Source of the DNA: Thiotrichaceae bacterium
GTDB lineage: Bacteria; Pseudomonadota; Gammaproteobacteria; Beggiatoales; Beggiatoaceae
Assembly (NCBI GenBank): GCA_011391085.1
Contig: JAABRD010000003.1
Span: forward strand, 1 to 64,000
Length of the DNA: 64,000 bases
Direction of reading: 5' to 3'
In this document: positions 26,521 through 32,931 of the stretch, in pieces
How positions within the stretch are numbered: position 1 is the first letter of the stretch
How the letters are laid out: the number at the start of each line of letters is the position of its first letter
Translations under genes and position numbers: made by a program
Notes under the pieces: generated by a model
What the model saw: the letters and a program-made list of their open reading frames with translations, nothing else
Databases searched by the model: none
What the model was told of the DNA's origin: nothing

Positions 26521-26844
26521 TTAACAGGCAACGACAGAATCAACAGGAGTAAATGTGTAAGGTCGAATGTCTTTAGACAATTTCCCTTGAAGACGGTCCT
26601 TGGCCACCTCTAAGTCAAAGTGAGTTTGTAAGTTCATCCAAACCTCTTCAGAGGTACCAAAGAACTGTGCCAGGCGGAGGGCAAGGTCTGCTGTGATGGG
26701 TCGTTTGCCACGCACAATTTCATTAATCTTGCGGGCCGAGACCTGGAGACCGTTAGCCAGTTTCGCTTGACTGAGGTGCATCGGTTTTAAAAAGTCTTCC
26801 AGTAACACTTCGCCGGGGTGAATGGGGGCAAATTTTTTCTTCAT
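26521..26844 (-). CDS. higA: HigA-family antitoxin
   Basis: HigA neutralises the ribosome-dependent mRNase HigB and represses their shared operon. The 107-residue protein begins with the family signature IHPGEVLLEDFLKPM, followed by the XRE-type helix-turn-helix LSQAKLANGLQVSARKINEI and VRGKRPITADLALRLAQFFG. The C-terminal half (EEVWMNLQTHFDLEVAKD) is typical. It follows higB by 12 bp on the same strand, the standard higBA order. The pair seems intact. Confidence 0.93.
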   Translation of the reverse strand: MKKKFAPIHPGEVLLEDFLKPMHLSQAKLANGLQVSARKINEIVRGKRPITADLALRLAQFFGTSEEVWMNLQTHFDLEVAKDRLQGKLSKDIRPYTFTPVDSVVAC

Positions 26845-26856
26845 AGCGAGATTCCT

Positions 26857-27138
26857 TTAGTGATAATCAACTATTTCGACGTGATCAGCGTGACCCTGAT
26901 GCCATTCAAAACAAATTCGCCATTGGTCGTTAATGCGAATACTGTGCTGACCTTGACGGTTTCCGACTAATTGTTCTAAACGGTTGGCAGGCGGTATGAG
27001 TAAATCTTTAAGGTCTTTAGCAGAGTTTAAGTAGCCCAATTTACGTAAAGCCACCTTTTGAATACGTTGAGGTAGTTTAAGGGACTGTTGTCGACGAAAA
27101 ATGGTTTCTGTTTCTTTGCACTTGAAAGTTTTAATCAT
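26857..27138 (-). CDS. higB: HigB-family mRNA interferase toxin
   Basis: HigB-type toxins of the RelE superfamily cut mRNA in the ribosomal A site. The 93-residue protein is full length. It starts MIKTFKCKETETIF and contains RLEQLVGNRQGQHSIRINDQ followed by WRICFEW, the HigB core strand region with basic catalytic residues, and ends HVEIVDYH as many family members do. The order toxin-antitoxin and the 12-bp gap to higA support the call. This is the only TA pair in the window with both genes apparently complete. Confidence 0.93.
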   Translation of the reverse strand: MIKTFKCKETETIFRRQQSLKLPQRIQKVALRKLGYLNSAKDLKDLLIPPANRLEQLVGNRQGQHSIRINDQWRICFEWHQGHADHVEIVDYH

Positions 27139-27381: not shown

Positions 27382-27954
27382 TCAATCTTGTTTATTTTTC
27401 TTTGATGGACTGGTAGAAGGAAAAGGTCCGACACGAAAATTAATATCAACATATTCACTTTCCCCAACATGAATTGCATGGGCATGTATCTCAACTACTT
27501 TAGCAGAATGTATATTGACAATGGTTACTGTATTTAGAGGTGGACTTGCAGTATTTGAAGATTGAACAATACTTGAAGATTGAATAATACTTGAAGATTG
27601 ACCTGTATTTGAAGATTGACCAACTTGAGAAGGTTGCGTTTTCTTATATCCCATTTTCTCTGCCAATAACCTAAAATTTCGCCAATTCCCAATTCCTTCA
27701 TTTGCCTGACCCGCGATGGCAGCCATGTAAGGATATAAAGTTTTTGCCAAATCCACATGAACCCCTTTAGGACTTTTCCTAAGCACTTTGGCGATTTGAT
27801 TGGGACTGTAACCACACAGTAAGCCACGCAAATGAAGTTTTTCCATGGGACTGAGTGGTCTGCCTTTGTTATTGGCTAGGTCTTGATAGAGACGGTCTAG
27901 GTCCCAATCGACTTGGGCGGCGGTGAAACGGGTGTCAATGTATTCGTCGGTCAT
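27382..27954 (-). CDS. HTH-domain protein with variable tail, copy A
   Basis: This 190-residue protein is a paralogue of the gene at 28259. The shared N-terminus (about residues 1-85) has a WDLDRLYQDL helix, then LSPMEKLHLRGLLCGYSPNQ followed by IAKVLRKSPKGVHVDLAKTL, a LuxR/sigma-like helix-turn-helix of the type that often starts multidomain signalling or NTPase proteins in cyanobacteria and filamentous bacteria. Here it is free-standing. Residues 110-140 contain repeated QSS units (QSSNTG, QSSSII, QSSSIV, QSSNTA), then a beta-rich tail (TVTIVNIHSAKVVEIHAHAI). The tails of the two copies are unrelated at first sight. Function is unknown; a DNA-binding or adaptor role is inference. Confidence 0.6.
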   Translation of the reverse strand: MTDEYIDTRFTAAQVDWDLDRLYQDLANNKGRPLSPMEKLHLRGLLCGYSPNQIAKVLRKSPKGVHVDLAKTLYPYMAAIAGQANEGIGNWRNFRLLAEKMGYKKTQPSQVGQSSNTGQSSSIIQSSSIVQSSNTASPPLNTVTIVNIHSAKVVEIHAHAIHVGESEYVDINFRVGPFPSTSPSKKNKQD

Positions 27955-28258: not shown

Positions 28259-28777
28259 CTACTCTTTTCTGGGAAACTTTGAGGAAACTGGAGTCACCAA
28301 CAGGCTAAATTTAACGTCCATGACAACTCCATTTTCCTCAAAGTGTATCTTTTCGATACAGATATTTTCAATACTAAATTTTTCTATACAGATTTTACCA
28401 ATATTAATGCTTGAAATATCAAAAACTGTTGCACCTTGTGGTAATTGAAAAGGAGAAGGTATTTTCTTATACCCCCCCTCCTCTGCCCATTTCCGAAAAT
28501 TTCGCCAATCTTCCATATCTTTATCAACTTTATCGACAACTCCTTTGAGATAAGGATATAACGTTTTTGCCAAATCCACATGTAACCCTTTGGCGTTCTT
28601 ACGCAAAATTTTGGCGATTGTAGTTGGACTATGACCACAAAGTAAGCCACGAAGGTGAAGTTTTTCCATCGGACTCAGTGGCTTACCTTTGATATTGGCT
28701 AGGTCTTGATAGAGACGGTCTAAATCCCATTCAGTTTGGGCCGAAGTGAAGCGGGTGTCAATGTGTTCGTCGGTCAT
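28259..28777 (-). CDS. HTH-domain protein with variable tail, copy B
   Basis: The first 85 residues are about 75 percent identical by eye to the paralogue at 27382: TDEHIDTRFTSAQTEWDLDR, then SPMEKLHLRGLLCGHSPTT, IAKILRKNAKGLHVDLAKTL. After about residue 110 the proteins diverge. This tail is a row of short strands with an I-x-I-E-K rhythm (NIGKICIEKFSIENICIEKI), possibly a small solenoid. Its start is 228 bp from the divergent caspase operon, so a shared control region is likely. The short promoter-proximal stretches (TGGTTGGG, GTGCTAGTGGGGTTTAG) are also conserved between the two paralogues, showing that the whole gene unit was duplicated. Confidence 0.6.
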   Translation of the reverse strand: MTDEHIDTRFTSAQTEWDLDRLYQDLANIKGKPLSPMEKLHLRGLLCGHSPTTIAKILRKNAKGLHVDLAKTLYPYLKGVVDKVDKDMEDWRNFRKWAEEGGYKKIPSPFQLPQGATVFDISSINIGKICIEKFSIENICIEKIHFEENGVVMDVKFSLLVTPVSSKFPRKE

Positions 28778-29004: not shown

Positions 29005-29844
29005 ATGCGAAGTGAACATTTCTTTTTTATTTTAGGCATGTCGTTACTCCTCATGTCTGCTTGTAGTGCCCAACCGTCTGGTTCAGAGGGTGGCATGTCA
29101 TCTAAACCGGTGCCCCTGCTGGATGCCCAACCAGCACCTTCGACTACAGGGTCTGTGGACGGAAAAACTGCACAAGAACCAGCAGTTTTTTCTAATACTA
29201 CCACTCCGCTACCGCCGGCTGAAAATCAGCCATCACCAACGTCCCCGGTGCCGCCACCTCAAAAGACTGCCCCGGACCCGGCAGTACAAAAGTCGCCCCC
29301 TCGTGCGTCAATGGGGGAGGCTGTGCCACGTCCACCTGTTGGTAGTGAAGAAACTCAACCTGCGGAAAACCAACCCCGACCACAACCTTGCGAGGGAATG
29401 GCCGCTGATGCAGTGTCTCCGCGTGTTCAAGATTTCCTCACTTGTAAAGTGATTCAAATATTGGCAAAACCTGATCTGGTGCAGAGTTTCAGGGTTAAAC
29501 CTGATTCCGATCTTTCAGTTCCTGAAGATCAAAGATTGGGGAATTATCCGATAGTACCCAATGGTGAGGGGGCTAAACCAAGTGCCGAACAGCTAAAGGA
29601 ACTCCAATCCATACTTTTTTCCGATAAAAGTTATGTCTTTGGTGCTGAAAAACGGTGTTTTTTCCGTCCGGAAATGGGATTGCATTTTGTCAAAGGACGG
29701 GATGCGGTAGAGGTGTTATTCTCTTTTGAATGTGATTTGTGGTTATTCATCCACAAAGGTGAAGAAAAACCAAAACTGGAAGATTTCGATCCAGTGCGTA
29801 AACAACTGAAGGATTTGCATAAATCCTTATTCCCAACGTTATAA
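29005..29844 (+). CDS. Proline-rich lipoprotein, first gene of the caspase operon
   Basis: A lipoprotein signal with lipobox LMSAC (cysteine at about residue 20) indicates attachment to the envelope. Residues 25-130 are a low-complexity Pro/Thr/Gln linker that could span the periplasm or peptidoglycan. The C-terminal domain (about 135-279) contains CFFRPEMGLHFVKGRDAVEV followed by LFSFECDLWLFIH, with two cysteines that may pair. I do not recognise a named family. AGGAG precedes the ATG. It is followed by two exported caspase-like genes with gaps of 48 and 87 bp, then another lipoprotein, so a shared envelope function is likely. It could be an anchor, substrate or inhibitor of the proteases. 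Confidence 0.65.
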   Translation: MRSEHFFFILGMSLLLMSACSAQPSGSEGGMSSKPVPLLDAQPAPSTTGSVDGKTAQEPAVFSNTTTPLPPAENQPSPTSPVPPPQKTAPDPAVQKSPPRASMGEAVPRPPVGSEETQPAENQPRPQPCEGMAADAVSPRVQDFLTCKVIQILAKPDLVQSFRVKPDSDLSVPEDQRLGNYPIVPNGEGAKPSAEQLKELQSILFSDKSYVFGAEKRCFFRPEMGLHFVKGRDAVEVLFSFECDLWLFIHKGEEKPKLEDFDPVRKQLKDLHKSLFPTL

Positions 29845-29892
29845 CACGCCCACTCAACGTTAACTTTATCAACAATTTGTCAAGAGGTAATT

Positions 29893-30909
29893 ATGTGTAC
29901 TCAGAACAAAAAGGGTAGCTTTTTGGGGCTACTGGTATTGGTAGGGATGTTTGTTTTCCCTACTTTCTCTTTGGCTGCTACGCTTCACGCCATTCTCGTT
30001 AGTGATACTAACGATGCAAGTATTGGCACAAGTGTACAAGTGGACCAGAAAAAATTGCAAGGTTTGATGAAAAGTATTTCAGAATATACGGGAATAACCT
30101 TGAGTCCTCATTATGTTAGTGGTAATCAACTGAACCGTGCCAATGTGGAACTGGCAATCAACAGTGTTTCTAATGTTGGTTCAGATGACGTGATTTTCTT
30201 CTTTTGGAGTGGTCACGGGTTTAATGACGAGAGTTCAAGTTCAAGATCAAAATATCCCACAATGCATCTTGGTAATTGGCAAAATACACTGGGATTAGAA
30301 TCCGTTGCAAACATGCTTAAACAGAAAAAGCCACGTTTGCTAATTGTCATTGGGGACACTTGTAACAAGCCGATGGGAGGTTCCAGAGGAGAGGAAATAG
30401 CGAGAGGCGAAAAGGACGAAAACTACAAGGAACTTTTCTTAAACTATCGTGGCACCATTCTGGCGTCCAGTTCCATAACAGGGCAGTATTCGTATGGAAA
30501 CACCCAAACGGGTGGACTTTACACCAGTGCCTTTCTAAACAGTTTAAGCAAAGAATTGGCTTCCAGTGGTACACCAAGTTGGAAAACGCTGATGGGACGT
30601 GCGAATACGCCTATTAACGTGGGTTCTGGCGTAGTTCAACAGCCCCAATTTGACATAACTGATGGGGGTGGAACAATCGATGGGGGTGGAACAACTGGTG
30701 ATCATGATGATTGTAGAGTGGTAGATGAAACGGGACGACAACGGATTTGTGGCGCCCCAGCACCACCAAGACCTGAACCACCAAATCCGCCTAGGGAAGA
30801 TAACGGTAAATGCGTAGAAGATTCCTACTACAAGGATAAAGCAACAAAACAAGAGTGTTGTAAAACGGAAGGTGGAGGGAAAAAGTGTTGGGATGATTGG
30901 GAATCCTAA
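29893..30909 (+). CDS. Exported caspase-like (C14) protein 1
   Basis: The 338-residue protein has a signal peptide (about residues 8-29, FPTFSLAAT). The mature N-terminal domain has the caspase/metacaspase p20 layout: first strand LHAILVSDTNDASIG, a helix, the catalytic histidine H108 in FFFWSGHGF, and the catalytic cysteine C157 in LIVIGDTCNK. ASSSITGQYSYGN and YTSAFLNSL correspond to later substrate-pocket and helix elements. After about residue 255 a Gly/Pro-rich linker leads to a cysteine-rich tail (CRVVDET, ICGAP, CVEDSY, ECCKTEGGGKKCW). It is predicted to work in the periplasm or outside the cell. Gene order places it second in a four-gene operon. Confidence 0.78.
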   Translation: MCTQNKKGSFLGLLVLVGMFVFPTFSLAATLHAILVSDTNDASIGTSVQVDQKKLQGLMKSISEYTGITLSPHYVSGNQLNRANVELAINSVSNVGSDDVIFFFWSGHGFNDESSSSRSKYPTMHLGNWQNTLGLESVANMLKQKKPRLLIVIGDTCNKPMGGSRGEEIARGEKDENYKELFLNYRGTILASSSITGQYSYGNTQTGGLYTSAFLNSLSKELASSGTPSWKTLMGRANTPINVGSGVVQQPQFDITDGGGTIDGGGTTGDHDDCRVVDETGRQRICGAPAPPRPEPPNPPREDNGKCVEDSYYKDKATKQECCKTEGGGKKCWDDWES

Positions 30910-30996
30910 GTAACAAGGACGTGGAACTATGAAGGAGGGGGAATGTGTTCTGTAGATTCCCCCTTTTTACAAATACACTGAAGAGGATAAACACCA

Positions 30997-31962
30997 ATGT
31001 ATCGGAAAAAGGCTTTTCTGTTCGTGACTTGGTCATTACTATGGGTGATTGTACCCTCGCCGATGGCCGATACACTTCATACGGTCGTCGTCGCAAATAC
31101 AAGTGATTGGCAAACTGGCACGAGTTTCAGTAAAGATTTAAGCCGTATAAAGGAATTGGCAAACGCTATCTCTCGACACACACAGCTAACGCTCAAACTT
31201 TACGAAATTTCAGGTAATCATCTGACTCGTAATAAAGTCACTTCTACCTTAGAAAAACTCTCGGTGGAATCAAATGATGTGGTCATTTTTCATTATGCGG
31301 GTCACGGTGGACGTGCTTCAAACAAATCAAGTCCTTGGCCATCTATGGACATCGATGGAGGTCCTTTAGATTTAGACAAGGTTAGAATCACGCTAGAAAA
31401 CAAGAAACCACGATTTCTTATCATTTTAGCAGACACCTGTAATAAATTCGATGATTCCCTTAGCCCCGTTTGGAGTAGAGGAGGCAGTTCAAGCAGAGGC
31501 ACCCCCTCATCTGAAAGTTATCGCCAGCTATTTTTAAATTATCGGGGTCATGTCTTTGCCTTTGGCGCCAAACCAGGACAGTCTTCTTGGGGAAATTCTG
31601 AACACGGCGGTTTTTTCACTGAGGCTTTTTTAAATAGCCTAAATAAAGACCTGGCCTCCGCTAATCCCAATTGGCATACCATTTTGAAACGGGCTGAGGC
31701 CCCTATTGAAATCAACAATACTGTACAAAATCCTCAATCTAAAGTGAACATTCAACCTGCCAAAGAGGGTGTTGTTCAACCGACCGAGGATGCCTGTTAT
31801 TACTTTTACAAACCAGGAGGCGTACTTTGCTGTCGAAGTTCGAGTGGAACAACATGCGAACAATCTAAGATTACAGAGGAAGAATGTCCGGCCGGCGGAT
31901 GGTTTATGAAACCAGGCGGGGTTTTGTGTTGCCGACGCCCCACTGGAATTACCTGTCGATAG
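30997..31962 (+). CDS. Exported caspase-like (C14) protein 2
   Basis: This 321-residue protein is a paralogue of the preceding gene with the same domain order. A signal peptide (about residues 5-24, ending PMADT) precedes LHTVVVANTSDWQTGTSF. The dyad is H103 in FHYAGHGG and C148 in IILADTCNK. The helix FFTEAFLNSLNKDLAS matches YTSAFLNSLSKELAS of copy 1. The tail differs: two repeats of KPGGVLCCR followed by a short TG/SGTTC motif, giving about eight cysteines, probably disulfide-bonded. A GAGGA sequence precedes the ATG. The paired but diverged copies suggest different substrates or a heteromeric or cascade arrangement (inference). Confidence 0.78.
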   Translation: MYRKKAFLFVTWSLLWVIVPSPMADTLHTVVVANTSDWQTGTSFSKDLSRIKELANAISRHTQLTLKLYEISGNHLTRNKVTSTLEKLSVESNDVVIFHYAGHGGRASNKSSPWPSMDIDGGPLDLDKVRITLENKKPRFLIILADTCNKFDDSLSPVWSRGGSSSRGTPSSESYRQLFLNYRGHVFAFGAKPGQSSWGNSEHGGFFTEAFLNSLNKDLASANPNWHTILKRAEAPIEINNTVQNPQSKVNIQPAKEGVVQPTEDACYYFYKPGGVLCCRSSSGTTCEQSKITEEECPAGGWFMKPGGVLCCRRPTGITCR

Positions 31963-32026
31963 AGGCAAACATTTGATTCTGTTACTGTTGATTTTCTCCA
32001 TTTTTTTACCATGAAGAGGAACTAAT

Positions 32027-32497
32027 ATGAACCCCAAATTTTTCAACTGTTTGGTTATTGTGAGTTTGTTATTCTTTTTAGGAGGTTGTGCCCCTGGTAC
32101 GATGCCTTCTAAACAGACTGGAGGTGCCGCACTCGGAGGTGTTATAGGAGGTGCCCTTGGCACACAAGTTGGAGGAGGTAAAGGGCAAACCGCTGCTATT
32201 GTAGTAGGAACGTTAATAGGTGCGTTACTTGGCAGTTCAATAGGCGCAACAATGGACCAAGTGGACCAAATGAAGGTATCTCAAAGTTTAGAAACCAAAC
32301 CTTCAGGCTATGCTACCAATTGGACAAATCCTAACACCAAAATTGGCTATCAGGTAGTGCCCACCCAAACTTTCCAAGACAACAACGGTCAATGGTGTCG
32401 TAATTTTGAAACGGTAGCCATTGTTGAAGGAAAACCAGAAACAGTACAAGGTACGGCTTGCCGCCAATCGAATGGTTATTGGCAGTTGATACACTAA
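32027..32497 (+). CDS. 17-kDa surface-antigen-like lipoprotein with glycine zipper
   Basis: The signal peptide ends in lipobox FLGGC (cysteine about residue 21). Residues 30-80 are a glycine zipper (GGAALGGVIGGALGTQVGGG, then GTLIGALLGSSIGATMD), as in the rickettsial 17-kDa antigen and related outer-membrane lipoproteins, which insert or oligomerise in the outer membrane. The C-terminal part has W-C-R and GTACR cysteines that could pair. It closes the four-gene operon and is followed by a good terminator. A role as the outer-membrane pore or anchor for the exported caspases is inference from position only. Confidence 0.8.
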   Translation: MNPKFFNCLVIVSLLFFLGGCAPGTMPSKQTGGAALGGVIGGALGTQVGGGKGQTAAIVVGTLIGALLGSSIGATMDQVDQMKVSQSLETKPSGYATNWTNPNTKIGYQVVPTQTFQDNNGQWCRNFETVAIVEGKPETVQGTACRQSNGYWQLIH

Positions 32498-32521
32498 TGT
32501 TAATATGCCTTGCCTCCCACA

Positions 32522-32562
32522 GACCTCGAAGGTCCCCCAAACCTTCGAGGTCTTTTCATTTT
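32522..32562 (+). terminator. Rho-independent terminator of the caspase operon
   Basis: GACCTCGAAGGT and ACCTTCGAGGTC form a perfect 12-bp GC-rich stem with a short C/A loop, directly followed by TTTTCATTTT. It starts 24 bp after the last stop codon. Confidence 0.85.
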
Positions 32563-32816: not shown

Positions 32817-32931
32817 GTAGTGATGCAATGTGGGTGATAACAGAGGTACTAGCTGATTGTAATTTTGGCCAGACCTCCGAGGTCTCGAAGACCTCGGAGG
32901 TCTAGGGTTATCACCCACATTGCATCACTAC
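32817..32931. mobile_element. GTAGTGATGCAATG element with a different cargo hairpin
   Basis: It starts GTAGTGATGCAATGTGGGTG and ends CACCCACATTGCATCACTAC (perfect inverted ends, extending to GATAAC/GTTATC). The centre is GACCTCCGAGGTCTCGAAGACCTCGGAGGTC, a palindrome not found in the other copies. It lies between a truncated toxin and its antitoxin. Confidence 0.9.

Follow-up and report, generated by a model that had tools for sequence, protein, structure and literature searches.

What would a tandem pair of caspase-like peptidases do outside a bacterial cytoplasm, and what would hold them in check there? The question is raised by four genes within a 64,000-nucleotide stretch of a Thiotrichaceae bacterium genome (GCA_011391085.1, contig JAABRD010000003.1, positions 1 to 64,000 of the forward strand; the whole of this stretch is termed the window). 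The four open reading frames (ORFs) form an operon-like set, all on the + strand at window positions 29005-32497; they encode 279, 338, 321 and 156 amino acids and are separated by intergenic gaps of 48, 87 and 64 bases, bearing out the same-strand set with short gaps that a preliminary description of this DNA had put forward. Gene 1 is called the partner gene, genes 2 and 3 encode caspase A and caspase B, and gene 4 a glycine-zipper lipoprotein. The observation is real and is conserved in part of the family. We consider it probable that the two caspases are exported, Arg-specific, self-processing zymogens of the caspase family with a dedicated partner; their activity, substrate and role are what we infer.

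Family, dyad and fold of the two caspases

Caspase A (29893..30909) and caspase B (30997..31962) each comprise a signal sequence, a Peptidase C14 domain and a Cys-rich tail. Searched with the Pfam C14 profile (PF00656), both proteins scored above the cut-off of 21.4 bits (53.5 for caspase A, 54.3 for caspase B), and they were 39% identical to each other over 254 columns. The His/Cys dyads were intact, H108/C157 in caspase A and H103/C148 in caspase B, exactly at the residues named at the outset. The fold, whose absence from structure models was to have counted against the proposal, was present in the model of caspase A, the member of the pair covered by modelling. The model, made from a 27-sequence alignment, had a mean predicted local distance difference test score (pLDDT) of 83, with 206 of 338 residues at 90 or above; it matched caspase-9 with Z 19.9 (196 residues, root-mean-square deviation 2.7) and MALT1 with Z 18.5 (189 residues). 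Residues 26-260 aligned with caspase-9 residues 156-397, spanning both halves of the fold, so that caspase A is predicted to have the caspase fold. At the level of sequence, a profile of the subfamily described below made weak contact with caspase-3 p12 chains (E ~0.1), and its best matches among PDB sequences were metacaspases (E 1e-5, around the SGHG motif).

The residues invariant across the 27 aligned sequences, which come from several phyla, include D51, H108, D155 (aligned with the family Asp), C157 and N158. Asn follows the catalytic Cys (D-x-C-N) in the subfamily, as against D-x-C-R in all six aligned ordinary C14 proteins of the same genome. The dyad was kept in 37 of 40 subfamily proteins, as counted, like the tails below, by simple motifs. 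In two genera, a second caspase copy that occupies the same place in the operon (L161:3931-5160 and L162:8063-9292) is without the dyad motif; these two are possible pseudo-enzymes.

Distribution of the subfamily

This genome holds seven copies of the subfamily in four places, two in the window, two at C62, two at C48 (with an ordinary-type C14 lipoprotein between them) and one at C130. The profile of these seven (A3) matched 16 of 42 genomes of the order at E <=1e-10, all of one family, with strong matches in 13 of the 42 (best E <=1.5e-53); a class sample of 369 genomes gave two matches at 1e-20, both in the same family. In a scan of named genomes (80 loci among the matches listed, 43 of them read), kin of the subfamily were found in Thiomargarita, Marithrix and Parabeggiatoa, and more distant kin in Spirochaetota, Chlamydiota, Rhodospirillales, Planctomycetes and many Bacteroidota. 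A Cys-rich repeat protein follows the caspase genes at C130 (L011:195-2270), and a Thiomargarita protein in the same place (L076:6020-7774) has a similar N-terminus.

The subfamily was separated from seven ordinary C14 proteins of the same genome (Shimodaira-Hasegawa-like approximate likelihood ratio test, SH-aLRT, 99) in a quick tree of 78 rows that gave long-branch warnings; three near-duplicates were left out and five of the 12 ordinary C14 rows were dropped, the match being too short. In this tree each window caspase paired with a different copy from genome G013, caspase A at a support of 98 and caspase B at 100. G013 belongs to another genus, and its locus G013:C386 (L155) has the full order of partner, caspase A, caspase B and gene-4 homologue; the expectation that a relative would keep the four genes as neighbours was thus confirmed, each caspase having its own ortholog. 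From gene order and tree, either the two genera would have split after the duplication, or the whole operon would have moved together, the latter being possible because four other genomes of the genus of G013 carry neither the caspases nor the partner.

The partner gene, the Cys-rich tail and gene 4

The partner gene (29005..29844) encodes a signal sequence, a lipobox-like LMSAC (Cys20), a Pro-rich linker and a conserved C-terminal domain (29431..29838, containing the invariant C218 and C243). Pfam and NCBIfam searches of gene 1 gave no match, and the 13 partner members gave nothing better than E 0.11 against Pfam. The domain, which is the C-terminal half of the protein, was found in nine of the 42 genomes of the order, in 12 places, and all nine fall among the 13 with strong matches to the caspase subfamily. 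Outside the family, the class sample gave a single match, weak and partial (G242, E 4e-9, 83 positions), and a phylum sample of 398 genomes gave none. Thirteen partner loci were read (the 12 places and one Thiomargarita record, L076). In 12 of these the next same-strand gene is a subfamily caspase (its ORF breaking off early in L154 and L156), and the 13th (G030:C256) runs off the contig. Six positions are invariant in the 13 sequences, two of them Cys. The best partner model (pLDDT 85.8) resembled in overall fold a putative lipoprotein of Clostridium perfringens (4r7r; Z 9.4 over 116 of 122 residues, root-mean-square deviation 3.7, 9% identity), for which we know of no caspase partner. Likeness to KwaB (Z ~4) or a Polo-box (Z ~3) was taken to reflect common arrangements, and six matches to PDB sequences, the best at E 0.11 and five of the six to ribosomal L24e proteins, were taken as chance. 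The gene 1 product is probably the dedicated partner of the tailed caspase, serving as a scaffold, chaperone or activity switch.

The preliminary description had the caspases flanked by two lipoproteins. Within the window the lipobox-like motifs are there, LMSAC in gene 1 and LGGC in gene 4; as a general rule the claim was rejected, since a lipobox-like Cys was seen by eye in four of the 13 partners (window, L155, L160, L162), was unclear in two (L009, L154) and absent in seven. Gene 4 (32027..32497) has a C-terminal domain like the 17 kDa surface antigen, and its glycine-zipper assignment held: it scored 32.7 bits against 26.6 for PF16998 (17kDa_Anti_2) and 27.9 against 24.2 for PF05433 (Rick_17kDa_Anti). 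The gene-4 homologue in L155 reached 23.6 bits for the surface-antigen domain, just under 26.6, and had no glycine zipper match. A single-sequence gene-4 profile found it in two of the 13 partner loci, the window and L155, and because no other partner locus matched, we regard the gene 4 product as a presumptive envelope lipoprotein that would be accessory rather than core.

The tails of the two caspases had been described as different. They proved to be the same C-x(n)-CC-x(n)-C module, in one copy in caspase A (30811..30897; profile E 1.1e-7) and two in caspase B (31795..31863, E 2.3e-9; 31885..31959, E 2.6e-11), and their treatment as two distinct domains was dropped. In the caspase A model the tail is a small, confident three-strand unit (residues 307-333, pLDDT ~90). 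By the simple motif it is present in 13 of 40 subfamily proteins. A 28-position tail profile run over the 42 genomes gave 15 matches at E < 1e-5, all 15 on C14 proteins, 14 of these in the subfamily; five weaker matches had E 0.01 to 0.1, with host proteins not assigned. The 15th good match is on L211:3164-4873 (G030:C141), a lipoprotein-like protein in which the 4-Cys tail is joined to a trypsin-like domain and an ordinary C14 domain, the latter with Ser in place of the Cys. Judged by these profile matches, the 4-Cys tail is a mark of this system; it is probably disulfide-bonded and would probably serve as a docking tag.

Export

The signal peptides claimed for both caspases were recovered as signal-like N-termini by a crude scripted rule that rejects Asn, Gln or charge within an 11-residue core. 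The rule scored as signal-like 30 of 40 subfamily proteins, 27 of 35 kin of other phyla among the matches listed and, as its background, 14 of 39 window ORFs of at least 150 amino acids; it misses some N-termini that look signal-like by eye (e.g., L075, L170 and L171). Within this genome it picked out 6 of the 7 subfamily proteins and, among the ordinary C14 proteins, 11 of 12. With so many ordinary C14 proteins looking exported, the premise that the pair is unusual in being exported is weakened, and export of this family appears, from the N-termini, to be ordinary in this genome. The premise is weakened also by a 2012 account whose accessible text notes that some prokaryotic caspase homologues carry N-terminal helices, maybe signal peptides, and that 14 of the operons encoding them include OmpA (PMC3501461). 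The two cysteine peptidases would act outside the cytoplasm, in the periplasm or at the outer-membrane face.

The linker and its Arg-Gly pairs

Caspases are synthesized as a single chain and then cut between the two halves of the fold. The corresponding linker of caspase A (30367..30423) follows D-T-C-N, contains R165-G166 and R171-G172, and is a low-confidence loop in the model (residues 160-170, pLDDT <50); that of caspase B (31444..31518) contains R161-G162 and R167-G168. A readable linker was present in 37 of the 40 subfamily proteins. Arg-Gly occurs in 18 of the 37, with 26 occurrences where 5.7 were expected when each linker was shuffled (0 of 5000 shuffles as high), and the reverse pair, Gly-Arg, was at background (7 vs 5.7). 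Thinning to <50% identity left Arg-Gly in 13 of 26 linkers (3.9 expected), and to <45% in 8 of 20 (2.8 expected). Outside the linkers of the same proteins, Arg-Gly (49) and Gly-Arg (53) were about equally frequent in 14,331 residues. A linker rich in Arg-Gly is expected if an Arg-specific enzyme cuts itself, and according to the accessible part of PMC5756287 the characterised non-animal C14 enzymes cut after Arg or Lys, and orthocaspases self-process. The bias bears on specificity indirectly. The window caspases would be made as single chains, their most likely specificity being for a basic residue (Arg) ahead of the cut, and would mature by their own cut in the linker between the two halves, with R165 or R171 in caspase A and R161 or R167 in caspase B as the likely points of self-cleavage.

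Barrels and serpins in sister loci

The subfamily occurs elsewhere beside another class of protein. At G000:C48 in this genome and at Thiomargarita L078 (which shares its contig with G014:C23), a tailed caspase is followed by a C14 protein, a caspase-barrel fusion and a serpin lipoprotein, in that order. Caspase-barrel fusions were found in three genomes (L010:6437-8347, L078:7926-9683 and L164:173-2425). The barrels of the C48 and L078 fusions are 43% identical, and the Pfam barrel model matched the fusion barrel weakly (E 0.05). One of the three fusions, from genome G015, lies at a contig edge and has an OmpA domain between the caspase and barrel-like parts; at C62 a separate, related barrel-like gene follows the caspases (L212:7931-8797; 34%, 2e-16). 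Sister loci carry members of the same protease family fused to a barrel of outer-membrane type, with a serpin alongside.

Serpins adjoin subfamily caspases at L010:9253-10548 (G000:C48), L078:9705-10982 and L165:10237-11634, the first two with lipoprotein-like N-termini by eye. In genomes with a strong subfamily match, a subfamily caspase is no more than 3 kb away from 3 of 17 serpins, where 0.06 were expected (Poisson p 4e-5), a figure that stands on three cases and on a simple random-placement model ignoring contig breaks. Of 39 serpin match rows, 22 had a readable reactive loop, the others being fragments, without a locus or off the pattern; all 22 loops had a basic residue and then Gly or Ser (17 Arg-Gly, 2 Lys-Gly, 3 Arg-Ser). 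The serpins beside the barrel fusions have SRGRS loops, and SRGEG and SRGRG occur in the linkers of the fusions themselves; the third neighbouring pair shows PKG in the loop (L165 serpin) and IKG. The tailed caspases of the two barrel loci have SRG in the C48 linker and no Arg-Gly in that of L078. Counted plainly from the hinge by serpin numbering, the Arg of SRGRS falls at P2 or P1', not exactly at P1. The likeness of loop to linker is suggestive only, because it comes from three loci. The activity of the family would probably be held in check by inhibitors, because its members in sister loci adjoin a serpin. Accessible passages elsewhere place Beggiatoa among bacteria with chordate-like serpins (PMC8233489).

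Hairpins and neighbouring genes in the window

A hairpin followed by a T run, a possible terminator or attenuator, lies between the two caspase genes (30932..30968, + strand), the stretch 30910-30996 folding at -22.4 kcal/mol with a z of only -1.5; because this hairpin separates the genes, a single uninterrupted transcript is not certain. The perfect terminator reported after gene 4 is real as a hairpin (32521..32553, + strand, 13 pairs with a T-rich tail, folding z -6.4), and it is also one of 11 places in this genome (<=3 mismatches) occupied by a dispersed inverted-repeat family. Inverted repeats of the GACCTCGAAGGT kind are present at 32521-32553 and 32872-32902.

Upstream of the operon, on the - strand, are two similar unnamed proteins with near-identical N-terminal halves (27382-27954 and 28259-28777); they resemble helix-turn-helix proteins by eye and matched nothing in Pfam and NCBIfam searches. 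A HigA antitoxin gene (NCBIfam TIGR02607) lies at 26521-27138 on the - strand, beside a small ORF that resembles HigB. No RNA family reached its gathering score in the window, nor was a tRNA found there. Phage and plasmid origins were rejected: caspase A gave no tblastn match at E 1e-5 against 50,697 phage records, and the operon gave no blastn match against 72,556 plasmid records.

Weighing the readings

Several results weigh against exported, self-processing zymogens as the explanation. Arg-Gly is missing from 19 of the 37 linkers, and the linker of the caspase B ortholog has Arg residues followed by Ser. Among kin of other phyla, within the matches listed, it was in 6 of 29 linkers (p 0.19), with 8 occurrences vs 4.2 expected (p 0.04); in 16 linkers of ordinary C14 proteins of the same family it was in 5 (p 0.33), with 11 occurrences vs 4.5 (p 0.0008), and because this result is mixed, the bias may extend beyond the subfamily. 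D51, the candidate counterpart of the acidic specificity-pocket residue of metacaspases (the pocket for Arg or Lys), was placed off by three in the MAFFT alignment; the equivalence could not be fixed and is not claimed. Second-position caspases without the dyad motif occur in G014 and G035. The distribution is patchy, G013 being the one genome of five in its genus with caspases or partner, and the partner model was the best of five from a three-sequence alignment (the others at pLDDT 70, 52, 43 and 40). Serpins are in 26 of the 42 genomes, twice the number with strong caspases, and a serpin scan of these 42 gave no match in G015 and G035, where caspases are present.

The first alternative is that these are plain secreted degradative peptidases, used for food or competition in the manner of clostripain and the gingipains, the partner and lipoprotein only aiding export or anchoring. 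The signal-like N-termini, the fusions to DUF4384, OmpA and barrel domains, which point outside the cell, and the retention of the dyad in nearly all members would suit it; a lineage-restricted partner before the caspase, a maturation-like linker and serpins in three loci suggest regulation instead, and we consider this account unlikely. A non-proteolytic role, in which fold and dyad persist by descent in binding proteins that act as scaffolds with the partner, would fit the second-position relatives L161 and L162 and the tailed trypsin-C14 protein with Ser at the Cys position, but the His, Cys and D-x-C-N are invariant in the 27 aligned sequences of several phyla and the dyad is so widely kept in the family that such a role seems highly improbable. 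Least credible is a module for anti-phage defence or abortive infection, with envelope caspases that kill the infected cell: caspases do act in known defence systems, the pair gave weak PADLOC caspase-model matches (E 0.0027 and 0.00031) and HigA is nearby, but no PADLOC model fits the four genes together (gene 1 best E 0.79, gene 4 none), the EACC1 caspase model (NF047832), whose cut-off is 140 bits, gave 19.2 and 19.1, the tblastn and blastn searches of phage and plasmid records found no relative of caspase A and no operon DNA respectively, and the predicted export sets the pair apart from known cytoplasmic effectors.

The extracytoplasmic proteolytic system of the preliminary description is accordingly kept as the best reading as to place and family, with proteolysis itself presumed, and the exported, Arg-specific zymogen with a dedicated partner is the form of it that we favour. 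The roles suggested there, in colony behaviour, filament-end cell death or contact-dependent killing, drew no specific support. A broader proposal, that Beggiatoa-like bacteria run an envelope caspase-serpin system of exported, tail-tagged, Arg-specific zymogens with a lineage-specific partner, barrel versions and serpin loops copying the caspase maturation site, is offered as a tentative one that may well be wrong.

Comparison with known systems

The window pair shares the C14 domain, the His/Cys dyad and the D-x-C motif with the bacterial C14 homologues (orthocaspases, or prokaryotic metacaspases), and differs from orthocaspases in the alignment of both fold halves (caspase A model), D-x-C-N, signal-like N-termini, the 4-Cys tail and the partner gene. 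The EACC1-associated caspase family (NF047832) has the caspase domain in common; at ~19 bits the pair is far below its 140. Closer to hand is Thiomargarita nelsonii, of the same giant sulfur bacteria group and likewise with many C14 genes: the accessible text of PMC4853749 gives 59 PF00656 genes, then the most known in a bacterium, with roles poorly understood, and makes no mention of export, operons, partner, tails or serpins. A literature search, with subscription papers mostly outside its coverage, found no exported caspase operon with a partner, 4-Cys tail or serpin. A subfamily of exported type appears to be split off here: its partner gene is fixed, its tail was confined to C14 proteins across the genomes covered, its linker has a likely site of maturation, and there is a candidate for its natural inhibitor. 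With it, the question of how bacterial caspase homologues act and are controlled shifts from cytoplasm to envelope, in bacteria some of which are among the largest. The nearest parallel for control is in plants, where serpins are reported to inhibit metacaspases (AtSerpin1 with AtMC1 and AtMC9, in the accessible part of PMC10609998) and where, likewise, a serpin with a basic loop is set against a C14 family that cuts after Arg or Lys; the pairs described here differ in being bacterial, in that both members would be exported, in lying in sister loci and not in the window, and in that the inhibition is putative. If true, such pairs would give bacteria their own counterpart to the protease-and-serpin control of animals and plants, one that works outside the cytoplasm.

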